Of a stretch of DNA of 15,655 nt, positions 1 through 13,973 are shown in pieces. The notes beneath the pieces were generated by a model. The model did no database searches and was not told the DNA's origin. It saw only the letters and a program-made list of their open reading frames with translations. The stretch spans positions 1 through 15,655 of the forward strand of contig JAGOGU010000015.1 in assembly GCA_017996515.1 (NCBI GenBank). The letters run 5' to 3'. A program made the translations under genes and the position numbers. The stretch comes from Allobrachymonas sp. (GTDB taxonomy: Bacteria > Pseudomonadota > Gammaproteobacteria > Burkholderiales > Burkholderiaceae_C). Every line of letters begins with the position of its first letter. Position 1 is the first letter of the stretch.

Positions 1-2168
1 CGTACGGTCTGATCCGTTGTGCGGGTGCCCTCAGTAGCCTGCTCGGTAACCGAGAAGATTTCCTGAATGTTGTTGGCAACCAAACCGGCCTGGTTGGCTT
101 CTTCACTGGTAGTGGCAGAAATTTGCTGAATCAGATCCGACAGGTTGTTGGATACGCGGTCGATTTCTTCCAGTGCCTTACCCGCATTATCTGAAAGTTG
201 CGCACCGTGCACCACTTCCTGGGTAGAGCGCTCCATGGCGGCAATGGCGTCGTGGGTGTCGCTTTGAATGGTTTTAACCAGTACAGAGATCTGTCGGGTA
301 GCCTCGGCAGAGCGTTCGGCCAAGCGCTGCACCTCTTCCGCCACGACAGAGAAGCCGCGCCCCGCGTCGCCAGCAGAAGCCGCTTGAATGGCGGCATTCA
401 AAGCCAGAACGTTGGTTTGCTCGGTAATGTCGGAAATCAGCTCGGTGATCTCGCCAATTTCTTGCGACGATTCACCCAGCCGCTTGATCCGTTTGGCGGT
501 GTCCTGAATCTGGTCGCGGATCAGGTTCATACCGTGCATGGAGTCTTACACGGCTTTGTGGCCGTCAACTGCGGCTTGGCGTGCCCGCAGCGCTACCAGC
601 GCAGAATCTTTGGCCTGGTAAGAGGCGGAGTTGATCCGCTTGGCCATTTCCAAAACGGACTGCCCTGCATGGCGGATGGAGAGCAACTGCTCGTTGGATG
701 CCTCTTGCAGCACGGCAGAGGTCAACTCCACATCGGCTGTGGTTTGCACCACTTTATCCACCATGTTTTGTGCGTTACCGATCAAGCCACGCCACTCTTC
801 GATCGTGTTGTTGACCGAGTCGGCAATGGCACCGGTAATCTCTTCTGTTACGGTAGCATCACGGGTCAGATCGCCTTCTGCAATGTTTTGCAGTTCGTCC
901 ATCAGCAGCAAAATGGCAGACTGGTTGCGGCTGTTTTCTGCTTCAGACAAACGTTGCATCATCTGCATCCGGCGCGCATCAGCGCGCGAGATGTAAACGA
1001 TGCCATATACAGCGAGCAAGGCAAGCAGACCGCAAACGATGGTACCTGCGTAAATGCCCCATCGGATGACAGGATTGACGTTTTGTGGAGTGCCCAATAG
1101 TTGGCTTAATGCCATGATGTTGGGCATGGCGCTTTCTACGCCGGTCGTGATGCGGTCATGTGCCTGGCGCAAGACGAGCAAGTCTTGCTCGTGCGCTGCC
1201 AAGGGCGCAATTTTTGTTTTGAGCGGTGCGTAGGCTTGGCCAATCTTTTCCAGGAGGATCTGCTCACCAGGTTGAAGGGGCACAACCCCCAATGTGTTGT
1301 CACCTGTGGAAAGGGTTTTCAACAAAGCGTCGATGGTCGTCAGATCTTTACCCAACTGCTGGGATACTTCCTGAGTGGCGCTCGGCGCGGTCAGAAGTTG
1401 CTGAGCAGATTTTTCGAGACGCTCTACGAGCATACCGATATCGCCTACAGCCAGAGTTTGACTGGCAGGCGCATTGCGTTGTGCCAAGGTGTTTTTAAGG
1501 ACATCGACCTGTTCTTGCACAGCGCGGGCATCGGAAGAAGTGTCGCGCGCGGCTGCGAGCAGGGGTTGCAGAGTTTTTTGTTGGGCGACAACAGTTTCCA
1601 CTTCTGGAGCCAGGCTGCTGCCCAGGTTTTGCTCAATCAGGGCCACGCTGTTGCGATCCGCGTTGCCGAGTTGTGCCATGCTGTTGCTGATGTTTTGATA
1701 GTTTGTTTTGACTTCGGCAAAAGCGGATTCGCTGCCTGCCATGGCGGCGTGGGTGTTGCGAGATAGTCGAGCGGCATTCAGTTGCAGCGCGCCTGTAGCG
1801 GTTAACGCCGCCTGCTTGTGCGAATCGTCCAGCGTTTGCAGAGAATACAGATTCAGCCCGATCGGTATCAACAGGAACAAGACGACCAGGATGGACAACG
1901 TACGCCGATGCGTGGCAACCGGCTTGGTTCCCAGCAGCGGAACGTGCACGCTGTCAGGCATGTCTTTTTGTTGATAGGTTTCGAGGTACTGCTGTTCGTC
2001 CAGCGAAGGGTGTGCGGGCGCACTCGATGTTGTCTCTTCAGCGCGGAAAAGCACTTCTTCGTTGCCGTCTTCAGGAAGAACGCTGCTGATAATCGTATCG
2101 GAGTGATCAGGCTGGTCTTCTGTCAGGAGTAGATCTTGCGGATTGTTGTTTGGGGTTGTTTCTTTCAT
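1..2168 (-). pseudogene. pilJ: Type IV pilus chemoreceptor PilJ, interrupted by an in-frame stop, 3' end off the window
   Basis: PilJ is the inner-membrane methyl-accepting receptor of the Pil-Chp system, which signals through CheW-like proteins and the kinase PilL/ChpA to control type IV pili. The chosen ATG ends at 2168, with AAGG 8 bases upstream; an upstream in-frame ATG (2210) would overlap pilI. Residues 1-89 are a long acidic cytoplasmic head. A first membrane segment lies at about 90-110, a helical periplasmic sensor region follows, the second membrane segment is at about 370-393, and a HAMP-like region comes next. The frame stops at TAA (546-548) after residue 540. Immediately beyond, the same frame is open to position 1 and encodes the classic signalling hairpin, including [46 protein letters not shown] and TRQI. 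The product as written keeps the sensor but lacks the CheW/CheA-binding tip. The identity is certain; whether the stop is real or an error cannot be told from sequence alone. Confidence 0.88.
546..548 (-). other. In-frame ochre (TAA) codon inside pilJ
   Basis: On the minus strand the codons read GAC GGC CAC AAA GCC GTG TAA GAC TCC ATG CAC GGT ATG. In the PilJ family this position lies in the helix before the signalling tip, where sequences like VQD are common. A CAA glutamine codon changed to TAA by one C-to-T transition would restore V-Q-D-S-M-H-G-M-N. No frameshift is needed, because the frame is the same on both sides. Confidence 0.9.
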
Positions 2169-2193: not shown

Positions 2194-2760
2194 TCAGTGC
2201 GGGAGGGCATGCTCTGTCGGCGTCATGACGGCAGCGATGTCGAGAAATTGCGGATCTTGTATCAGGGCTTGCAAGTGGACTTCTTGCCAGGCGGTGTTGT
2301 TGCCGTCGAAAAAGACAGTTCCCAGATGCGCGGGGGCATTCGGCAGCGTTTCGGAGCGGGTAAAAGCGTCGGGGCTGCGTAAGCCTTCCAGCCCATCTAC
2401 GCGAAAGACCACGTTCAGACCAAACGCATCGTTGATGCCGATCAGGTTCGATCTGGCACGATCAATCGGTGGCGCAACAGCTGCTTGTGAGGTGGAAGGG
2501 ATAAAAGCACCTAATTCGATGACGCCATAAATGTTGCCGCGCAGGTGTGCCACACCCAGAAACCAGGGTTTGGTATAGGGCAAGGGCTGTACAGCGGTCA
2601 TGGCATAGATTTCGCCAGATTGCTGCAAGGGCAACAGCAATTTTTGTTCACCCAAACGCACGCCCAGCCAAGAGGCAGTTAAGCCTGTATCGCTGCTGGC
2701 TTGTTGTAGTAGCTTGGCAATACGTTCTTGCAGTTCGCGTAGCGCCTTTTTCTTGGACAT
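2194..2760 (-). CDS. pilI: CheW-like adaptor PilI of the twitching-motility chemosensory system
   Basis: PilI is a soluble CheW-domain scaffold that couples the PilJ receptor to the histidine kinase PilL/ChpA. The 188-residue protein begins MSKKKALRELQERI and has the expected features: an N-terminal amphipathic helix, then a CheW fold with WLGVRLGEQKLLLPL, the proline-rich PLPYTKPWFLGVAHLRGNIY segment typical of PilI, and a core with RSNLIGINDAFGLNVVFRVD. The open frame extends upstream to 2916, but that part overlaps pilH and has no family similarity, so the ATG ending at 2760 is chosen. Its ribosome binding site is weak (CGGAAC). pilI lies 35 bases after pilH and its stop is 25 bases before the pilJ start, consistent with one operon. 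The assignment rests on CheW-like sequence plus context. Confidence 0.88.
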   Translation of the reverse strand: MSKKKALRELQERIAKLLQQASSDTGLTASWLGVRLGEQKLLLPLQQSGEIYAMTAVQPLPYTKPWFLGVAHLRGNIYGVIELGAFIPSTSQAAVAPPIDRARSNLIGINDAFGLNVVFRVDGLEGLRSPDAFTRSETLPNAPAHLGTVFFDGNNTAWQEVHLQALIQDPQFLDIAAVMTPTEHALPH

Positions 2761-2795: not shown

Positions 2796-3161
2796 TTAGC
2801 CGAGAGCCTTGATTTTTTCCAGCAATTCGCTGGGGTTGATGGGTTTGGTGACGTAGGCGCGGGCGCCTTGGCGTATGCCCCATACCTTGTCGGTTTCCTG
2901 GCTTTTGCTGGTACAAATGATGATGGGGATGTCGGCAAAGCGCTCGTCTTTGCTGATTTGGCGGGTGAGCTGAAAGCCGTTTTTGCCCGGCATGATGACA
3001 TCCATCAGGATCAGATCGGGTTTTTGGCGCTCCAGTTCGGCCAGAGCCGCTTCGCCATCATTGGCTAAAGCAACGGTCATGCCGTTTTTTTGCACGATGG
3101 TGGATATGAACATCTGCTCGGTTTTGGAATCGTCAACAATCAGCACGTGCTGAATAGGCAT
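2796..3161 (-). CDS. pilH: Twitching-motility response regulator PilH
   Basis: A single-domain CheY-like receiver of 121 residues with no output domain. The acidic pair is D10-D11, the phospho-acceptor is D54 (in LILMDVIMPGKNGFQ), the conserved switch residue is T84, and the invariant lysine is K106 (in YVTKP). In the Pil-Chp pathway PilH receives phosphate from the kinase and is linked to pilus retraction or phosphate removal. It is called PilH rather than PilG because it comes second, starts MPIQHVLIVDDSKTEQ and carries the PGKNGFQLTR loop. The start has AAGGAG at 3171-3176, overlapping the pilG stop codon, with only 6 bases between pilG and pilH, which suggests translational coupling. All catalytic residues are present. 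Confidence 0.93.
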   Translation of the reverse strand: MPIQHVLIVDDSKTEQMFISTIVQKNGMTVALANDGEAALAELERQKPDLILMDVIMPGKNGFQLTRQISKDERFADIPIIICTSKSQETDKVWGIRQGARAYVTKPINPSELLEKIKALG

Positions 3162-3167
3162 GGTGAT

Positions 3168-3539
3168 TTACTCCTTGGGCGAGAAAGAATCGACTGCGGC
3201 AAGCAGCTCGGTCTTGGTAAATGGCTTGGTCAGGTACTGATCAGATCCCACAATGCGGCCACGCGCCTTGTCGAATACGCCGTCTTTGGATGACAGCATG
3301 ATGACCGGGACATGGGCAAATCTCTGGTTGCGCTTGATGATGGCGCAAGTTTGGTAACCATCGAGCCGCGGCATGAGAATATCGCAGAAAATGATGTCGG
3401 GATGTGTGTCGTTGATGCGGGAGAGGGCATCAAATCCGTCTTCTGCCAACAGCACTTCGTGTCCGCCCTGTTTCAGAAAAATTTCTGCGCTACGTCGAAT
3501 GGTATTGCTGTCGTCGATTACAAGTACTTTCAATCTCAT
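3168..3539 (-). CDS. pilG: Twitching-motility response regulator PilG
   Basis: A single-domain CheY-like receiver of 123 residues and first gene of the pilG-H-I-J operon. Visible key residues are D9-D10, phospho-acceptor D53 (in PDIIFCDILMPRLDGYQT), switch serine S83 (in VIMLSSKDG) and K105 (in YLTKP). The segment VFDKARGRIVGSDQYLTKPF is characteristic of PilG, which promotes pilus extension and cAMP signalling in the family. The ATG is preceded closely by GAGGGAG (3541-3547). All conserved receiver residues are intact, so the pathway downstream of the receptor appears functional even though pilJ is interrupted. Confidence 0.93.
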   Translation of the reverse strand: MRLKVLVIDDSNTIRRSAEIFLKQGGHEVLLAEDGFDALSRINDTHPDIIFCDILMPRLDGYQTCAIIKRNQRFAHVPVIMLSSKDGVFDKARGRIVGSDQYLTKPFTKTELLAAVDSFSPKE

Positions 3540-5823: not shown

Positions 5824-6675
5824 ATGTCTGTTCTCAAATTACTTGCCTCTGCTCTTTTTTATGTGTTGACTATCGTCGTCATCTTCTGTCTGATGTTGCC
5901 GTTCATGGTGCTCAAGCTCTTGCCCATCCCGTCCTTGCGCGTGTTGTGTAGCCAGGCATTGACGGCGGTGGCCGATGCCTGGTGCGTATGCAGCCAGAGG
6001 TGGATTGACTGGGTCAACCCTGTGCATTGGCGCGTGCAGCTGCCCGAAGGGCTGGAGCGGCAAAACTGGTATCTGGTGATAGCAAACCACCAAAGCTGGG
6101 TGGATATTATGGTGCTGCAAAAAGTGTTCACCAACCGCATACCTTTTCTGAAATTTTTTCTCAAGCAGCAGCTGCTCTATATCCCACTGCTGGGCATCGT
6201 CTGGTGGGCGCTGGATTTTCCTTTCATGCGCCGCAGCGGTGGCGAAAATACCAAAAAAGATTTGGCAACAGCGCGCGCCGCTTGCGAAAAATTTCGCATC
6301 GTACCCACTTCGGTCATCAGCTTCATCGAGGGCACACGCTTTACCGCCGACAAACACCGCGAAAGCAAATCGCCCTATACCCGTCTGCTGCCACCCAAAG
6401 CGGCAGGCATTGCGGTCACGCTCGAAACCATGGGCAGCACTTTTGCCAGCTTGCTGGATGTAACGATTGCTTACCCGCAGGGCGTGCCGACTTTTGTCGA
6501 TGTGATGGCGGGCAGGCTCAAGGAGGTGATCGTGCACGTGCGCGCCATGCCTGTGCCACAAGAGCTGTTGCCGCAAGAAGGCCACCCCCCTGCATCGCGC
6601 ACGCGGGTGCAACGCTGGATCAATGGTCTTTGGCAAGAAAAAGACGCCGAACTGGCGCGCATGCTGGAGCCGTAA
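5824..6675 (+). CDS. YihG-like PlsC-family lysophospholipid acyltransferase
   Basis: A membrane-bound acyltransferase of the PlsC/LPLAT superfamily that transfers an acyl chain to a lysophospholipid such as lysophosphatidate. The 283-residue protein has an N-terminal hydrophobic segment (about residues 8-36), the catalytic HX4D motif at H89 to D94 (NHQSWVD), the YihG-type block FLKQQLLYIPLLGIVWWALD, and the substrate-binding motif FIEGTR at 167-172. LLPPKAAGIAVTLE and the ending INGLWQEKDAEL also match E. coli YihG well. The ATG at 5824 is chosen because the hydrophobic helix starts there. The frame is open from 5716, but the 36 extra residues have no family counterpart. No good Shine-Dalgarno is visible. 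It stands alone between two copies of an intergenic repeat. The family call is firm; the exact lipid substrate is not known. Confidence 0.9.
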   Translation: MSVLKLLASALFYVLTIVVIFCLMLPFMVLKLLPIPSLRVLCSQALTAVADAWCVCSQRWIDWVNPVHWRVQLPEGLERQNWYLVIANHQSWVDIMVLQKVFTNRIPFLKFFLKQQLLYIPLLGIVWWALDFPFMRRSGGENTKKDLATARAACEKFRIVPTSVISFIEGTRFTADKHRESKSPYTRLLPPKAAGIAVTLETMGSTFASLLDVTIAYPQGVPTFVDVMAGRLKEVIVHVRAMPVPQELLPQEGHPPASRTRVQRWINGLWQEKDAELARMLEP

Positions 6676-6863
6676 AGGTGCATGCTCATGCACTGCTTTC
6701 GATATGTTTCAGTATGGTGGAGGCTTCAGCGGTTCTCGAAATGCGTGAACCCCCTTCCACTCTACAACTGCCGAGAAAGAGGCAGGCTGAGGACTGTTGC
6801 ATTCGTTCAAGGAAATCGACAATAACTTGAGCAAAAAGCCCTTTTCACCCCCAACCTAACCAA

Positions 6864-6895
6864 CCTTCCCCCGCGCGAGCGGGAAGGGATTTTTT
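6864..6895 (+). terminator. Rho-independent terminator after the acyltransferase gene
   Basis: CCTTCCC (6864-6870) pairs with GGGAAGG (6881-6887); an inner GC pairing with a two-base bulge extends the stem. Six T residues follow at 6890-6895. It lies about 190 bases past the acyltransferase stop. The hairpin is also the first part of repeat copy B, so it may be a repeat used as a terminator. On the minus strand no T-run follows it, so it is a poor terminator for purH. Confidence 0.55.
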
Positions 6896-6944
6896 GATGA
6901 AAATCAGTCCTTGTCACCATTGGGGAAGGGGCAGATTGCCGAAG
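6864..6944. repeat. Dispersed intergenic repeat, copy B
   Basis: The second copy has the same two-part layout as 5496-5595: a CT/GA-rich hairpin (6864-6887), then a block at 6917-6944 reading CCATTGGGGAAGGGGCAG and ending ATTGCCGAAG. The spacing between the parts is shorter here (29 bases against 47). The pair forms direct repeats flanking the acyltransferase gene. Confidence 0.5.
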
Positions 6945-6960
6945 CAGTCAGTAGCGCAAA

Positions 6961-8562
6961 TCAGTGGCGGAAATGTCGCACGCCGGAAAACACCATGGCG
7001 ACGCCGCGTTCGTTGGCGGCGTCGATTACTTCCTGGTCGCGCATGCTGCCACCGGGTTGGATGACACAGGTGGCGCCGTGGTCAATTACCACATCCAACC
7101 CGTCGCGGAAGGGGAAGAAGGCATCGCTGGCCACCGCCGTGCCTTGCAGGCTCAGTTGGGCGTGTTCGGCCTTGATGCTGGCAATGCGGGCCGAGTCCAG
7201 TCGGCTCATCTGGCCTGCGCCTACGCCCATGGTCATGCCGTTTTGGCAGAACACGATGGCATTGCTTTTGACGAATTTGGCTACTTTCCAGGCAAAGAGC
7301 AGATCCTGCATTTGCTCGGGCGTAGGCTGCTTGTGGGTAACGACTTTCAGGTCGTTCAGCGCCAGTTCGTGGTTGTCGGCCGTTTGCAGCAACAGGCCCG
7401 AGCCGATGCGCTTGGCGTCCATGGCGTTTTGGCCTTTGTCCCAGGGGCGGTCGCCGCCGGGCGGCAGGGCGATTTTCATCAGGCGCACATTGGTCTTGGG
7501 TTTGAAAATCTCCAGCGCCTCGGGCGTGAAATCGGGCGCCATCAACACTTCGACAAACTGTTTGACGATCAGCGCGGCGGCAGCGCCATCCAGCGGGCGG
7601 TTGAGTGCGATGATGCCGCCGAAGGCGCTGGTAGGGTCGGTCTGGAAGGCTTTGGCATACGCCTCGGTGGCGTCTTTGCCCACGGCCACGCCGCAGGGGT
7701 TGGCGTGCTTGACGATGACGCAGGCCGGCGCGTCGAACTGCTTGACGCATTCCCAGGCCGCATCGGCGTCGGCAATGTTGTTGTAGCTCAGCTCTTTGCC
7801 TTGCAGTTGCTGGCCGGTCACGATGCTGCCGGGCGCAGGGTGCAGGTCACGGTACAGCGCAGCGTGCTGGTGGGCGTTTTCTCCGTAGCGCAAGTCTTGC
7901 ACCTTGACAAACATGCCGTTGCTTTGCGCAGGGAACAGGGCGCGCTCGGGCGTGCCGTTGATCTGCGCTTCGTCAAAGACGATGGAGGACAGATAGTCGC
8001 TGATGGCGGCGTCGTATTGCGCGATGCGGTTGAATGCGGCCACCGACAACGCAAATTTCGTTGCCAGGCTGACGCTGCCGCTGATTTTGAGTTCTGTTAC
8101 CACCTTGTCGTATTGGCTGGCATCGGTCAGCACGGCCACGTCTTTCCAGTTCTTGGCGCCAGAGCGCACCATGGCCGGGCCGCCAATGTCGATGTTTTCG
8201 ATGGCATCAGCCAGCGTGCAGCCGGGCTTGGCTACGGTGGCTTCAAAGGGGTAGAGGTTCACGCACAAAATGTCGATGGTGGCAATGTCGTGCGTGTTGA
8301 GCGCCGCGACGTGCTCGGGCAGATCGCGCCGCGCCAGCAGGCCGCCGTGGATTTTGGGGTGCAGGGTTTTGACGCGGCCGTCGAGCATTTCGGGGAAGCC
8401 GGTATGGTCGGCCACCTCGGTGACAGGCAGGCCACTGTCGGCCAGCAGCTTGGCCGTTCCGCCGGTCGAGAGCAGCCGCACGCCCAAGGCATGCAGGTCT
8501 TGGGCCAGTTCGACGATGCCGGTTTTGTCAGAGACGGAGAGCAGGGCGGTAAGCTGAGGCAT
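6961..8562 (-). CDS. purH: Bifunctional AICAR transformylase / IMP cyclohydrolase
   Basis: Catalyses the last two steps of de novo purine synthesis: formylation of AICAR by 10-formyl-tetrahydrofolate, then ring closure to IMP. The 533-residue length is typical. The N-terminal MGS-like cyclohydrolase domain shows [51 protein letters not shown] and [17 protein letters not shown]. The C-terminal transformylase shows [14 protein letters not shown], the catalytic lysine-histidine pair K285-H286 in [20 protein letters not shown], and [11 protein letters not shown]. The ATG has AAGGAA 5 bases upstream (8568-8573). It is the last gene of dusB-fis-purH, 116 bases after fis. No frame damage is seen. 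Confidence 0.97.
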
Positions 8563-8678
8563 GGCAGTTCCTTTTTGCGGGGAGGGGTAAGTCAGGCAGA
8601 TTCAGAAAGGAGCAGTATTCGGATGAATAACAGATAGGAGGCAAAAGGCGAGTGGGCGCATGGTTGCGAGCCTGCGGC

Positions 8679-8936
8679 TTATCCGGTACGTTCGCCGCCG
8701 GGCGACAGCAGCCCGTGTTGCAGCAGCAGCTTGCGCAGGGTGTTGCGGTTGATGCCCAGCCATTGGGCGGCTTTGCTCTGGTTGCCGCGCGTGCGCTGCA
8801 TCACCAATTCCAGCAGGGGCTTTTCTACCACGCGCAGCAGCATGTCGTACATGCCCGAAGGCTCTTGTCCTTGCAGGTCGTTCAGGTACGTTTCCAGATT
8901 TTTGTGGATGCAGGCTTGTAGTTGTTCTTTGGACAT
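8679..8936 (-). CDS. fis: Fis-family nucleoid-associated DNA-binding protein
   Basis: A small (85-residue) homodimeric nucleoid protein that bends DNA and regulates growth-linked promoters. The C-terminal helix-turn-helix is clear: GNQSKAAQWLGINRNTLRKL at residues 51-70, preceded by the dimerisation helices (YDMLLRVVEKPLLELVMQRT). The N-terminus is MSKEQLQACIHKNLETYL, and the protein ends shortly after the recognition helix, as Fis does. Sitting directly after dusB is the conserved dusB-fis arrangement of proteobacteria and supports fis itself over an isolated NtrC-type HTH fragment. No strong Shine-Dalgarno is seen, so translation may depend on dusB, 47 bases upstream. Confidence 0.93.
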   Translation of the reverse strand: MSKEQLQACIHKNLETYLNDLQGQEPSGMYDMLLRVVEKPLLELVMQRTRGNQSKAAQWLGINRNTLRKLLLQHGLLSPGGERTG

Positions 8937-8983
8937 GAAAGGTTCTCGTTGTGGTTATCAGGAAAAAATGGAATCCGTGCTGC

Positions 8984-10036
8984 TCAAGCGGCCAGTAAGT
9001 CAGCCTGATCGGCATCTGCAGTATCTTCAGTGGGCGTTAGTGTGGGCAGGCGCATATGTTCGGCTTGCAGGCGGGCAAAAAAGGCATCAATGGCCCGCAT
9101 TTGCGCATCGGCCGATTCGGTGCCGTTGATGTGTTGGCGCAGGGCGTCGCCACCGGGCAAACTGGCCGCATACCAGCCGATGTGCTTGCGTGCGCTGCGC
9201 ACGCCGGTGTATTCGCCATACAGGGCGTAATGGTCTTGCAAATGGTGCTGCAAGGCGGCGTGCGCCTCGGCCACTGTGGGCGGCGGCAGCAGTTCGCCGG
9301 TTTGCAAATAATGGGCAATTTCGCGAAACAGCCAAGGGCGGCCCATGGCGGCGCGGCCAATCATCAACGCATCGGCGCCAGTGGCAGCGCGCACAGCGGC
9401 TGCTTTCTGCGGGCTGTCAATATCGCCATTGGCAACGACCGGAATGCCAACGGCGGCTTTGACCGCCGCAATGGTGTCGTACTCGGCCAAGGCTTTGTAG
9501 CCCTGCTCGCGTGTGCGCCCGTGTATGGCCAGCATGGCAACGCCGGCGCTTTCGGCTTTTTGTGCCAGTTGCACAGCATTGCGGCATTGCGCAGACCAGC
9601 CGGTGCGCATCTTCAGCGTAACGGGCACCCGCTGCGGCAGGCAAGCTGCGACAACGGCTTCGATGATCTGCAAGGCCAGCGTTTCGTTTTGCATCAAGGC
9701 CGAGCCGGCCCATTTTTTGCACACTTTTTTGGCCGGGCAGCCCATGTTGATATCGATGATTTGCGCGCCCCGATCGATGTTGTAGCGGGCGGCTTCGGCC
9801 ATCTCAGTGGGGTCGACGCCTGCAATCTGCACGGCGATGGGGCCGGGTTCGCCTGCATGATCGGTGCGGCGCGAGGTTTTCAGGCTGTGCCACAAATCGC
9901 GGCGGGAAGTCACCATTTCGCTGACGGCATAGCCTGCTCCAAAGCGGCGGCACAGCTGCCGAAACGGCCGATCCGTCACCCCTGCCATAGGGGCGACAAA
10001 CAGCGCGTTTTCAGGAAAGAAATGACCGATTTGCAT
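8984..10036 (-). CDS. dusB: tRNA-dihydrouridine synthase B
   Basis: A flavin enzyme that reduces specific uridines to dihydrouridine in the tRNA D-loop. The 350-residue protein begins MQIGHFFPENALFVAPMAGV. It carries the FMN-barrel motif MAGVTDRPFRQLCR, the Dus signature INMGCPAKKVCKKWAGSALM with catalytic cysteine C100, TLKMRTGW, AIHGRTREQGYKALAEY, VVANGDI and DALMIGRAAMGRPWLF. The frame extends upstream to 10150 but runs back through the putative promoter, so the ATG ending at 10036 is chosen. Its Shine-Dalgarno is poor. It is the first gene of dusB-fis-purH and diverges from the DksA-like gene. The conserved DusB form NMGCPAKKV supports B rather than A or C. Confidence 0.94.
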   Translation of the reverse strand: MQIGHFFPENALFVAPMAGVTDRPFRQLCRRFGAGYAVSEMVTSRRDLWHSLKTSRRTDHAGEPGPIAVQIAGVDPTEMAEAARYNIDRGAQIIDINMGCPAKKVCKKWAGSALMQNETLALQIIEAVVAACLPQRVPVTLKMRTGWSAQCRNAVQLAQKAESAGVAMLAIHGRTREQGYKALAEYDTIAAVKAAVGIPVVANGDIDSPQKAAAVRAATGADALMIGRAAMGRPWLFREIAHYLQTGELLPPPTVAEAHAALQHHLQDHYALYGEYTGVRSARKHIGWYAASLPGGDALRQHINGTESADAQMRAIDAFFARLQAEHMRLPTLTPTEDTADADQADLLAA

Positions 10037-10062
10037 GAGGCGGAAAAGGACAAAAGCGCGAC

Positions 10063-10068
10063 ATTGTA
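10063..10068 (-). promoter_or_regulatory. Candidate -10 element of the dusB-fis-purH operon
   Basis: TACAAT on the minus strand (5 of 6 to the sigma-70 consensus), about 27 bases before the dusB ATG, giving a very short leader. A good -35 is not obvious: AACTTG is at 17-base spacing and TTGTTT at 14. The -35 zone falls inside the palindrome at 10069-10089, so the promoter may depend on a bound regulator. Confidence 0.4.
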
Positions 10069-10089
10069 CTTGCTTAAATTTTAAACAAG
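10069..10089. promoter_or_regulatory. Palindromic operator-like site upstream of dusB
   Basis: Two 10-base arms, CTTGCTTAAA (10069-10078) and TTTAAACAAG (10080-10089), flank a single central T. Nine of ten arm positions are complementary. The site directly abuts the candidate dusB -10 on its upstream side, where an activator or repressor would act. I do not recognise the motif as a named regulator's site. Confidence 0.45.
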
Positions 10090-10253
10090 TTGCGCAGTAG
10101 CGGGCCAAATGGGGGGATAGCCATTTTGCAGCGCAAAGGCTTGCCTGCAAGGCTCAGGTACAGGACAATCAAAGCTTGTCCGCGTTCTCGAAAAGAGAGC
10201 GAATAAGCTCTAAACTATTACTCTGTCATTTACTGTTTTATTGCCGTTACGGC

Positions 10254-10260
10254 AGGAGGA
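10254..10260 (+). promoter_or_regulatory. Strong ribosome binding site of the DksA-like gene
   Basis: AGGAGGA, 6 bases before the ATG at 10267. It is a near-perfect Shine-Dalgarno and the strongest in the window, so this small regulator is probably well translated. Confidence 0.8.
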
Positions 10261-10266
10261 GTTTTC

Positions 10267-10662
10267 ATGTCCACCCGTTTGAACGCGGCTCAGTTGGCCG
10301 AATTGCAGGCCGTATTGTTGCAGCGCAAGGCCGATATCGAGCAGAGGCTGGAGGAGGCACACGAGGGTAAAACACGTGCCGAACATGCGCGCACGGTTCT
10401 TTTGCAAGACGGCGATGATGCGCCCCAGCGCAACTCGGATCGCGAAGTAGATATGGCCTTGAGCGACTTGGGTGTGTTTGATTTGAACCGAATCCAGGTT
10501 GCCTTGGATCGTATCGCAGCGGGCACATACGGGCTGTGCGACGAGTGTGGAGAAGACATTGGATTTGCCCGGCTGCAACTGGAGCCGCAGACTTCGCATT
10601 GTGTCAACTGCAAGTCCCGTTGGGAAAAAGAAACCGGCAAGGCGACTTTCCATCGTATGTGA
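10267..10662 (+). CDS. DksA/TraR-family zinc-finger transcriptional regulator (short form)
   Basis: DksA-family proteins bind the secondary channel of RNA polymerase and, with ppGpp, alter initiation at stringent-response promoters. This 131-residue protein has an N-terminal coiled coil (about residues 7-84), an acidic tip (D48, D50, D51), a four-cysteine zinc site C91-x2-C94 and C112-x2-C115 (GLCDECGEDIGFARL, SHCVNCK), and a basic C-terminal tail. It is shorter than E. coli DksA (151 residues). The tip reads DGDDA rather than the classic DxxDxA, so I treat it as a DksA-like paralogue, not dksA proper. It is alone in its transcript: upstream is the divergent dusB operon, and a strong terminator starts 36 bases after its stop. 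Confidence 0.88.
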   Translation: MSTRLNAAQLAELQAVLLQRKADIEQRLEEAHEGKTRAEHARTVLLQDGDDAPQRNSDREVDMALSDLGVFDLNRIQVALDRIAAGTYGLCDECGEDIGFARLQLEPQTSHCVNCKSRWEKETGKATFHRM

Positions 10663-10698
10663 TGCATGTGCTTTGCCTGAAGCATGCTTGAAACCAAC

Positions 10699-10735
10699 AA
10701 AAAACCGCTGCATGGGAAACATGCAGCGGTTTTTT
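10699..10735. terminator. Strong bidirectional intrinsic terminator
   Basis: CCGCTGCATG (10705-10714) pairs perfectly with CATGCAGCGG (10720-10729) across a five-base GGAAA loop. Six A residues precede the stem and six T residues follow it, so it should act for the DksA-like gene on plus and for the BON lipoprotein gene on minus, whose stop is about 50 bases away. Confidence 0.95.
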
Positions 10736-10781
10736 CATGCGTGGCAGGTCACGTCCATGCGACCAAAGGGTTGGTGGTCGC

Positions 10782-11549
10782 TTATGGCGTCGTGCTGCCA
10801 GGCGCAGTGGGTGTTGCAGGCGCAACTGGAATCAGTTGTGGATTGGCGGGCACGTTCGACGGGTAAGGAGCCGCAGGCGCTACCGGTGTGGCATGGGTTG
10901 GCACAGCATTCATGGGCAAAGAGTTGTTAATGGCTGCATCGCCCACGATCTCGAATACCTTGACGACTTTCTGCACGCCACTGACACCGCTGGCAACAGC
11001 AGCCGCGCGATCGCTCTCTTGTTGCGTGACGATGCCCATGAGGTAAACCACGCCGTTTTCCGTGGTGACTTTGACGGCATTGGATCGCACGTTGCGGCTG
11101 CCTACCAGCGCGGTTTTCACGCGCGCGCTGGTCAAGGCGTCGTTCGGCGTGCTGGCGGCAAGGTTGCCCACACTCACTTCATTCACGATGTAGCGTGCAT
11201 TGGGCAGTGTTCGGGCGGTGTTTTCAACCAGATCACGATCAGCCTGTGTAAAGACCTGGCCGGTCAGTAGCACCACGCGGTTGTAGCTGGTCACGCTAAC
11301 CGAACCGCGATTTTGCAACGCGGTGCTGATACGGCTGCTGCCGCGCATTTCGATGGCTTCGTCGTCCAGCTGGGCGCCCGAGCTGCGGCGATCGGTCGCC
11401 AGCAGCAAGCCACCGACAACGCCGGTAACCATCAGCGGAACACAGGCGCTCAGGCTGCCGGCCAACACGCCACTCAACACCACGGTGCGCAGCAGGGCAG
11501 GCCAACGACGGGGCGTTGCAGAACGGGAAGCGGAAAAAGACAAAAGCAT
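10782..11549 (-). CDS. dolP: BON-domain outer-membrane lipoprotein, DolP/YraP-like
   Basis: DolP-type lipoproteins sit in the outer membrane facing the periplasm, where the E. coli homologue supports envelope integrity and BAM function. The 255-residue protein has a basic signal peptide and lipobox LSAC with the lipidated cysteine at C36. Two BON domains follow: about residues 75-133 (VSVTSYNRVVLLTGQV, RYIVNEVSVG) and 140-205 (VKVTTENGVVYLMGIV, GVQKVVKVFEIVG). A proline/alanine-rich tail of about 45 residues (VAPATPTAPGSTTP at the end) is longer than in E. coli DolP. The ATG ending at 11549 has AAGGAG 7 bases upstream (11557-11562); the open extension to 11597 has no function. Proximity to yraN and rsmI is the YraP neighbourhood. 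Confidence 0.85.
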   Translation of the reverse strand: MLLSFSASRSATPRRWPALLRTVVLSGVLAGSLSACVPLMVTGVVGGLLLATDRRSSGAQLDDEAIEMRGSSRISTALQNRGSVSVTSYNRVVLLTGQVFTQADRDLVENTARTLPNARYIVNEVSVGNLAASTPNDALTSARVKTALVGSRNVRSNAVKVTTENGVVYLMGIVTQQESDRAAAVASGVSGVQKVVKVFEIVGDAAINNSLPMNAVPTHATPVAPAAPYPSNVPANPQLIPVAPATPTAPGSTTP

Positions 11550-11675
11550 GGCAAAACTCCTTGAAAACTGCGGCCAACCGCGTGTGCAATTGACCACTAA
11601 TGGTAAACGGAAAGAATCGCTTGCAAACAGCGTGATGATACAGACAGCGATAGGCCGTGCAAGCCTGCCTCTGTA

Positions 11676-12146
11676 TCAAGCTGCATCAAAAGCGGCCACC
11701 AGCCATGTCCAGTGCCAAGGCGGGCCAGGCTGGTCGCAGGCCATCACGTCGAAGCGGCAGGCGGGCAGGTGCTCGAGCTGTTGCAGATAGTGTTGCGCGG
11801 CGTGGATGATGCGGCGCTGTTTCAAGCCTCCTACGCTGGCGGCCGCGCCGCCGTGGCTGCTGCCCGAGCGCAGGCGCACTTCCACAAAAACCAGGGTGCC
11901 ATCGGCTGCGCGCATAATGGCATCAATTTCTCCGCCGCCGCGCCCGGGTGTTTGGTAGTTGCGCTCCAGCAGGGTCAGGCCCTGTTGCTGCAGCCAGGCA
12001 ATGGCAGCGGCCTCGGCCGCATCGCCCGCTTGTTTGCGGCTGGCCGTTTGGCGGGCAAGCGCATCCTTTGGCGCAGACGCTGCCTGCTGCGGGTTGGCGC
12101 GGCGTTCGGGGGCAATGAATTGATTGATACGTCGAAAGAAACCCAT
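11676..12146 (-). CDS. yraN: YraN family (UPF0102) endonuclease-like protein
   Basis: A 156-residue UPF0102 protein with a restriction-endonuclease-like fold; its biological role is not settled. The conserved core starts at about residue 37 (RKQAGDAAEAAAIAWLQQQG) and contains GRGGGEIDAIM with E73 and D75, then LVFVEVRLR (87-93), matching the GEIDLI...VFVEVK motif, with arginine in place of the usual lysine. The C-terminus CRFDVMACDQP also fits. The first 36 residues form a variable extension. The ATG ends at 12146 and is preceded by GGGAGGG about 11 bases upstream, which lies inside the rsmI coding region. The dolP gene follows after 126 bases with no diaA between. Confidence 0.9.
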   Translation of the reverse strand: MGFFRRINQFIAPERRANPQQAASAPKDALARQTASRKQAGDAAEAAAIAWLQQQGLTLLERNYQTPGRGGGEIDAIMRAADGTLVFVEVRLRSGSSHGGAAASVGGLKQRRIIHAAQHYLQQLEHLPACRFDVMACDQPGPPWHWTWLVAAFDAA

Positions 12147-12154
12147 TGGTGAAT

Positions 12155-13105
12155 ATGCCCTCCCAGACTGGCTTGAGCAATGCCCTGCAGGTGGCAGCGG
12201 CGGTGGCTGGCAATCAATCTTATCCGCAAGGCTGCCTGTATCTGGTGGCCACGCCCATCGGCAACCTGGCCGACATCAGCCTGCGCGCCTTGCATGTGCT
12301 GCATATGGCCGATGTATTGGCCTGCGAAGACACCCGCCACACGCAGGCGCTGCTGCGTGCCTGGGGGATGCAGCGCCCATCCGGCGAATTGTTGGCCCTG
12401 CACCAGCATAACGAACAACAGGCCGCACAGCATGTGGTGCAGCGGCTGCAGCAAGGGCAGCGGGTGGCCTATGTGAGCGATGCGGGCACGCCCGCCATCA
12501 GCGACCCCGGGGCACGCCTGGTGCAGGCGGTGCAAGCGGCGGGTTTGCGCGTGATGCCGATTCCCGGTGCCAGCAGTGTGATTGCTGCCTTGAGTGCCAG
12601 CGGGGCGGATACGGTAGAAGCCGCCAGCGGCGTGGCTGGGGTGGACGGTGGCTGGGTGTTTGCAGGTTTTTTGCCTGCCAAGGGGCGCGAGCGCCAGCAA
12701 GCGTTGCAGGCCTTGCAGGCGGAGCGCCGCACCGTGGTGCTGTTGGAGGCGCCGCACCGTATCACTGCGTTGTGTGCCGAATTGGCGGCTTGCGGCGATC
12801 GCACCGTGACGCTGGCGCGTGAGCTGACCAAACAGTTTGAAAGCATCGTGACCCTGCCTGCGGCTGAACTGCCTGCGTGGATGCAGGCCGCGCCTGAGCA
12901 CAGCAAGGGGGAATTTGTGGTGGTGCTGCATCCCCTGCGGCCAACCGCGGCGGCGGAGGCCCATTTGCAGCCAGAGCAGGAAAGGGTGCTGCGCCTGCTG
13001 TTGCAAGAGTTGCCCACCAAGGCCGCAGTCAAATTGGCGGCCGAGATCACAGGCGCTGCGCGCAATGATCTGTATGCATGCGCTTTGCGCATCAAAGGGG
13101 AATAA
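12155..13105 (+). CDS. rsmI: 16S rRNA (cytidine-1402-2'-O)-methyltransferase
   Basis: RsmI uses S-adenosylmethionine to methylate the 2'-O of C1402 in the ribosomal decoding centre. The 316-residue protein carries the tetrapyrrole-methylase fold motifs of RsmI: LYLVATPIGNLADISLRAL near the N-terminus, ACEDTRHTQALL, AYVSDAGTPAISDPGARLV, PIPGASSVIAALSASGA, GFLPAKGRERQQAL, VLLEAPHRI and RELTKQFESIV. The ATG at 12155 is chosen; TTG (12146) and GTG (12149) lie in frame just upstream, and no clear ribosome binding site favours one. It starts only 8 bases from yraN, head to head, so their promoters must overlap each other's reading frames. Length and motifs are normal. Confidence 0.95.
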   Translation: MPSQTGLSNALQVAAAVAGNQSYPQGCLYLVATPIGNLADISLRALHVLHMADVLACEDTRHTQALLRAWGMQRPSGELLALHQHNEQQAAQHVVQRLQQGQRVAYVSDAGTPAISDPGARLVQAVQAAGLRVMPIPGASSVIAALSASGADTVEAASGVAGVDGGWVFAGFLPAKGRERQQALQALQAERRTVVLLEAPHRITALCAELAACGDRTVTLARELTKQFESIVTLPAAELPAWMQAAPEHSKGEFVVVLHPLRPTAAAEAHLQPEQERVLRLLLQELPTKAAVKLAAEITGAARNDLYACALRIKGE

Positions 13106-13121
13106 GGGCTTAAAAAAGCCC
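13106..13121 (+). terminator. Weak hairpin just after rsmI
   Basis: GGGCTT (13106-13111) pairs with AAGCCC (13116-13121) across an AAAA loop, immediately after the rsmI stop codon. Only a short AT-rich run (AAATTTT) follows, several bases away, so it is at best a weak terminator between convergent rsmI and coaX. Confidence 0.3.
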
Positions 13122-13193
13122 TGAGAAATTTTGGCTTATTAGGGCGGAGCGGGCAGTGTCTGCGGCTGTGAGCCTGTGGCGCAGCGCGCGGCT

Positions 13194-13973
13194 TTACAGC
13201 CCCTGTTCCGCCGCCAGCACCAGCAGGCCGTCAAAAATCAGCGATTCCACCAATTCGAACGGCGTTTCCATATACGGAGCCAACTTCCAGCCTGCGCCAC
13301 CCGTCATCAGGCACATGGGAGCAGCGCCACAATGGGCATGCACATGGCGCACCATGCGCTGCACGGCGCCAACCAGGGCAAAGGTGCCGCCGCTGGTCAG
13401 GGCGTCGCTGGTATTGGTGGGAAACGGTGTCACCTGCCCCGTTGGCAGATGTTGCAGGCCGGCTGTGCCGATTTCCAGCGCGTGCAGCATGATGCCGTGG
13501 CCGGGCAGGATGTATCCGCCCAGAAATTTGCCGTGTGCATCAATGGCTTCAATCGTCACGGCCGTGCCCACCATGACAACCACCAGCGGGCTGGGTGCCG
13601 TGCCGGCAGTGGCTTGCAGCATGTGGCGGCGGGCGCCGATCATGGCGACCCAGCGATCTGCGCCCAAGCGGTCGGGAATATCGTAGCCATTGAGCAGGCC
13701 CGCACCTTCGCTGCGGGCCACCACCCAGCGCGGTTGCAGATCGGGCCAAATTTCCATCTGCTCTTCGATGCGGTGTTTGAGCGCATCGCCCGCTACCACG
13801 CAGCCCAGCATGCAGGTGGGCGGTGCGAGATTTTTCCACGCCGTGTCGGCCAGGGTGTCGATCTGCTCCAGAAAATGCGCGTCGTGCGCCAGCATGTGCG
13901 CGCCGGGCTGCGGTTTGTTGTAGCAGGCCCACTTCAGGCGGGTGTTGCCAATATCGATGGCCAGAAAGGTCAT
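13194..13973 (-). CDS. coaX: Type III pantothenate kinase
   Basis: CoaX phosphorylates pantothenate, the first step of coenzyme A synthesis. The 259-residue protein of the acetate/sugar-kinase fold opens with [16 protein letters not shown] (D7 and N10 of the phosphate-binding loop), then [14 protein letters not shown] (D106, R107), [10 protein letters not shown] (136-145), GGYILPG (152-158), [15 protein letters not shown] and [14 protein letters not shown]. The ATG ending at 13973 is chosen over one at 13997 because family similarity starts there. The ribosome binding site is weak (AAGG 11 bases away). In many relatives birA precedes coaX on the same strand; here there is no room for it, since a divergent gene starts within 300 bases. 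A valine (V135) stands where some family members have an acidic residue before GTA. Confidence 0.93.

Follow-up and report, generated by a model that had tools for sequence, protein, structure and literature searches.

The pilus chemoreceptor gene pilJ of a Brachymonas-like species is interrupted by an in-frame TAA at 546..548 on the minus strand, and we consider it probable (roughly 60%) that this is a recent nonsense allele in one strain or population. The window, that is, the whole stretch of 15,655 nucleotides analysed here, is the entire contig C122 of a MAG of 1.59 Mb in 252 contigs that is 62% complete. Because the genome is a MAG, its consensus may stand for a population and not for the single strain implied by "this strain" in the initial annotation. 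The gene is a known one, and the lesion, whether a commonplace nonsense allele or a wrong base, reveals no new system.

The interrupted pilJ reading frame

The minus strand of the window carries pilG, pilH, pilI and pilJ, with hemL adjoining. The TAA is in frame with the ATG at 2168, from which it is preceded by 540 codons, or with the ATG at 2210, from which it is preceded by 554; the annotation of the near-identical protein P0001 starts at the 2210 ATG, and the position of the 2168 ATG is where P0002 starts, as do the other aligned proteins with an N-terminus. The part before the stop (549..2168, minus strand) covers the sensor part, the HAMP-side and the first half of the signalling coil. 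When this 540-residue part was searched in 60 genomes, including the window's own, 41 of them matched. It scored 22.3 bits against the Pfam PilJ model PF13675, under the cut-off of 26.6, and this model was also absent from the domains of full-length P0001 at E 0.001.

Beyond the stop, the frame remains open for 181 codons (1..545, minus strand) up to the contig end and codes for the receptor's MCP signalling hairpin, in the same frame as the sensor part at the DNA level. This piece matches MCPsignal (PF00015) with an E value of 2.2e-41 over profile positions 17-172 of 172, is 90% identical to its counterpart in G005 of the same genus, and differs from the latter by 64 synonymous and 17 non-synonymous codons in 179. 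These three results rule out an open frame that exists by chance. A Pfam search of the 540-residue product translated up to the stop did not find PF00015. Both elements of the initial description, a TAA after residue 540 and an open frame with a conserved hairpin running to the edge, are therefore borne out. Since a single frame spans both sides, a frameshift in place of the stop is ruled out. Position 1 of the window is the end of the contig, which stops within pilJ, so that about 20 last codons of the gene and its downstream neighbour fall outside. Across the 721 sense codons, 195 of the 6,489 possible single-base changes (3.0%) would create a stop.

The stop among relatives and its age

The stop was compared with the corresponding column in 29 relatives' loci (L004-L032), L001-L003 being left out of the count as they come from the window's own genome. 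All 29 have a sense codon there, which is glutamine in 26 and another residue in 3, among them G005, the closest genome of the genus. In the protein alignment, the column holds glutamine in 15 of 18 sequences and leucine in the other 3. Two proteins are nearly identical to the window and run through the stop position unbroken. P0001, a protein of 756 residues whose cluster has 109 member sequences, agrees with the window at 539 of the 540 residues before the stop (99.8%) and at 179 of 179 after it; for P0002, the corresponding figures are 518 of 540 (96%; eight mismatches and a 14-residue gap) and 179 of 179. A split gene as the normal state, which the initial annotation had named as a finding that would overturn its reading, is ruled out, as none of the 29 loci is split and P0001 and P0002 are unsplit. 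Its proposal that a single substitution explains the stop, and its expectation of glutamine at this position in relatives, agree with the intact near-identical proteins and with the counts above. We found no second sequence carrying the truncated form of pilJ.

At the amino-acid level, the 3' part is the same as in both intact copies; therefore, the change is either a very recent mutation, in line with the recent event envisaged initially, or a wrong base in the consensus. In the 170 codons before the stop, the window differs from G005 by 61 synonymous and 32 non-synonymous codons. These differences and those of the 3' part accumulated between species and are mostly older than the stop, and they show, as judged by codon comparison, that pilJ was under constraint until very recently.

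A real allele or a base error

The second of these possibilities, a consensus or assembly error, would mean that low coverage, a mixture of strains or DNA damage introduced a wrong base and that the gene is intact in the organism. We hold this to be quite possible. The MAG lies in 252 contigs, one of which ends inside pilJ only about 550 bases from the stop, and near-identical intact proteins exist, one of them within a 109-member cluster; if P0001 and P0002 are other assemblies of the same sample, which they could be, error or strain mixture would be favoured. However, the window and P0001 cannot share one consensus, because besides the stop column one residue separates them, and the genes checked elsewhere in the window are unbroken. 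With regard to readthrough or a changed code, all 15 genes other than pilJ have ordinary table-11 frames; they match homologues or families and show no sign of a break, the models of small proteins (for example, Fis-like and PAP2-like) giving only partial coverage. In-frame stops are also rare in the families that were sampled across the MAG: none in 38 ABC, 11 receiver and 3 PilT-like matches, and one each in 12 MFS rows and 11 matches to the end of ChpA. These samples do not support the idea that the MAG is of poor quality throughout and that the stop stems from this, although the last two matches do contain a TGA. The case illustrates how a trait can seem lost through a single base of an assembly, a loss that only reads can confirm.

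The MFS match with a TGA lies on C147 and overlaps an unbroken match, and the ChpA-end match with a TGA lies on C72, where a shorter match at the same place has none. Within the window, a DksA-like protein at 10267-10659 scores under the curated cut-offs of the DksA models (at best, 80.3 versus 105 bits).

A doubtful restart after the stop

An ATG at 537..539 (minus strand), six bases after the stop, is a doubtful candidate for a restart. The initial annotation suggested that the 3' part may have been kept by selection through readthrough or restart, and a working receptor in two pieces would arise if translation resumed at this ATG to yield the hairpin as a separate soluble protein. The position of the ATG directly after the stop and the undecayed state of the 3' part speak for such an arrangement, which we nevertheless regard as very unlikely. 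Of the 18 aligned proteins, 16 have isoleucine at this column, whereas P0001 and P0002 have methionine although their frames are intact, so that the methionine did not arise with the split; no clear ribosome site was seen by eye before the ATG; and the loci of all 29 relatives are unsplit. None of the 120 matches listed of 1,596 is a near-identical 3' half standing alone (the best reaches 85% identity), although one might be concealed in a cluster of longer proteins. These results thus lend no support to selection on the 3' part through readthrough or restart. It is similarly improbable that the stop and the ATG act as a coupled pair, producing a sensor stub in the membrane and, free in the cytoplasm, a signalling hairpin that still drives the kinase without input; if this were true, receptor output would have been locked by one base change. 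The preferred reading remains a recent nonsense allele of pilJ.

Neighbouring pil genes and chpA

The genes next to pilJ appear intact, as first annotated, with homologues covering PilG, PilH and PilI fully or nearly so. On the minus strand, pilI (2194..2760) encodes a CheW-like protein (PF01584, E 4.6e-12) that aligns over residues 1-188 of 188 to its G005 counterpart; pilH (2796..3161; PF00072, E 1.6e-30) and pilG (3168..3539; PF00072, E 2.9e-26) encode receivers with 91% and 93% identity, respectively, to those of G005. The order hemL-pilG-pilH-pilI-pilJ is common to G003, G005 and G008, the comparison for G007 being limited to the short contig that carries its pilJ. The window shares with PilJ of the Pil-Chp system this gene order and a hairpin that is 72-90% identical to relatives' PilJ, but its frame is cut before the hairpin and its N-terminal part falls under the Pfam PilJ cut-off.

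In G005, pilJ is followed by a CheA-like frame of 2,372 residues that is under the cut-offs of the CheA models. The start of ChpA had no match in the window's own genome, which means little at 62% completeness, and the end of ChpA had only a 32% match there, from another CheA-like frame. The chpA of G003 (L036:6309-13498) is split into overlapping frames at 6309-10559 and 10556-13498, by a frameshift, a genuine gene split or an assembly error.

Expected effect on Pil-Chp signalling

An MCP receptor without its hairpin tip is expected to be uncoupled from the kinase. In the present case, translation would stop at residue 540 and leave out the tip to which the kinase and the CheW-like protein bind, and PilG, PilH and PilI would lose control by the receptor. 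The cell would then behave as on loss of pilJ, twitching little if at all and keeping pilus signalling low. We infer all three elements of this scheme: a genuine base, an inactive truncated protein and a phenotype like that of pilJ loss.

In P. aeruginosa, Pil-Chp is described as having PilJ as its sole assigned receptor, and cells from which it is deleted twitch barely or not at all (PMC12632253); pilJ mutants are also reported to have lower cAMP and fewer surface pili (PMC13170266). A loss of receptor function like that of these mutants would be expected here. In contrast to those laboratory mutants, the window holds a natural, or only apparent, allele that is known from sequence.

As a cause within the favoured explanation rather than a rival to it, the allele may have been favoured since loss of pilus signalling protects from type IV pilus phages. 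Mutations in pilJ are indeed reported in phage-resistant P. aeruginosa (PMC13170266, PMC9603268). However, the screen of PMC13170266 itself found no Pil-Chp mutations, the window holds nothing that relates to phages, and drift suffices for the loss of a dispensable gene; we therefore think a role of phages unlikely. If real, the stop adds one more natural lesion in a pilus chemosensory pathway, of little significance alone.

Distribution of the pathway and of pilJ lesions

The pathway is patchy in the genus. Matches to pilJ together with strong matches to ChpA occur in four of the eight other genomes (G003, G005, G007 and G008), three of which also have a close PilG, the exception being G007 (76% complete). 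In the other four (G001, G002, G004 and G006; 94-100% complete), the search with the 540-residue part did not find PilJ, the search with the 3' part gave no match at E 1e-50, and no close PilG was found, the matches to the PilG query being at most 40% identical. Their matches to the start of ChpA are weak (30-39% identity, E 1e-16 to 1e-23), and those to its end are almost only receiver domains. No PilT above the cut-off was found in G002 or G004. Brachymonas chironomi is non-motile by description, yet pilus genes including pilT are reported for it (PMC4511610). Because of its patchy occurrence, the pathway looks dispensable in the genus, and a broken pilJ is unsurprising. With the pathway seemingly missing from some species of the genus, the allele, if real, may mark a step in the repeated loss of pilus signalling.

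In the wider family, the 3' part was searched in 399 genomes, of which 344 matched, with at least 150 match rows. Besides that of the window, 4 of the 149 matches listed lie in open frames shorter than 700 residues; two of these frames reach a contig end (G401 and G027), and for the one in G352 the 5' part does not match. The pilJ of G369, a genome from another genus of the family that is 100% complete, has a single TAA about 510 codons in (L054, minus strand, about 1705-1707). It resembles that of the window in this single in-frame TAA with an open homologous frame on either side, and is 71% identical to a relative along the gene. The G369 stop lies further upstream than that of the window and, going by the sequences, is independent of it.

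A different change affects the PilJ of G008 (L034 / L006) and the proteins P0016 and P0017, from which the whole periplasmic ligand-binding part is missing in frame, leaving 482 residues. These proteins resemble the laboratory pilJ-deltaLBD receptor, which is reported to allow twitching without steering (PMC12632253, PMC10896506). Towards its end, P0016 no longer resembles PilJ, perhaps as the result of a chimeric assembly. P0017 represents 173 member sequences, and the similar P0013, of 735 residues, retains the ligand-binding part.
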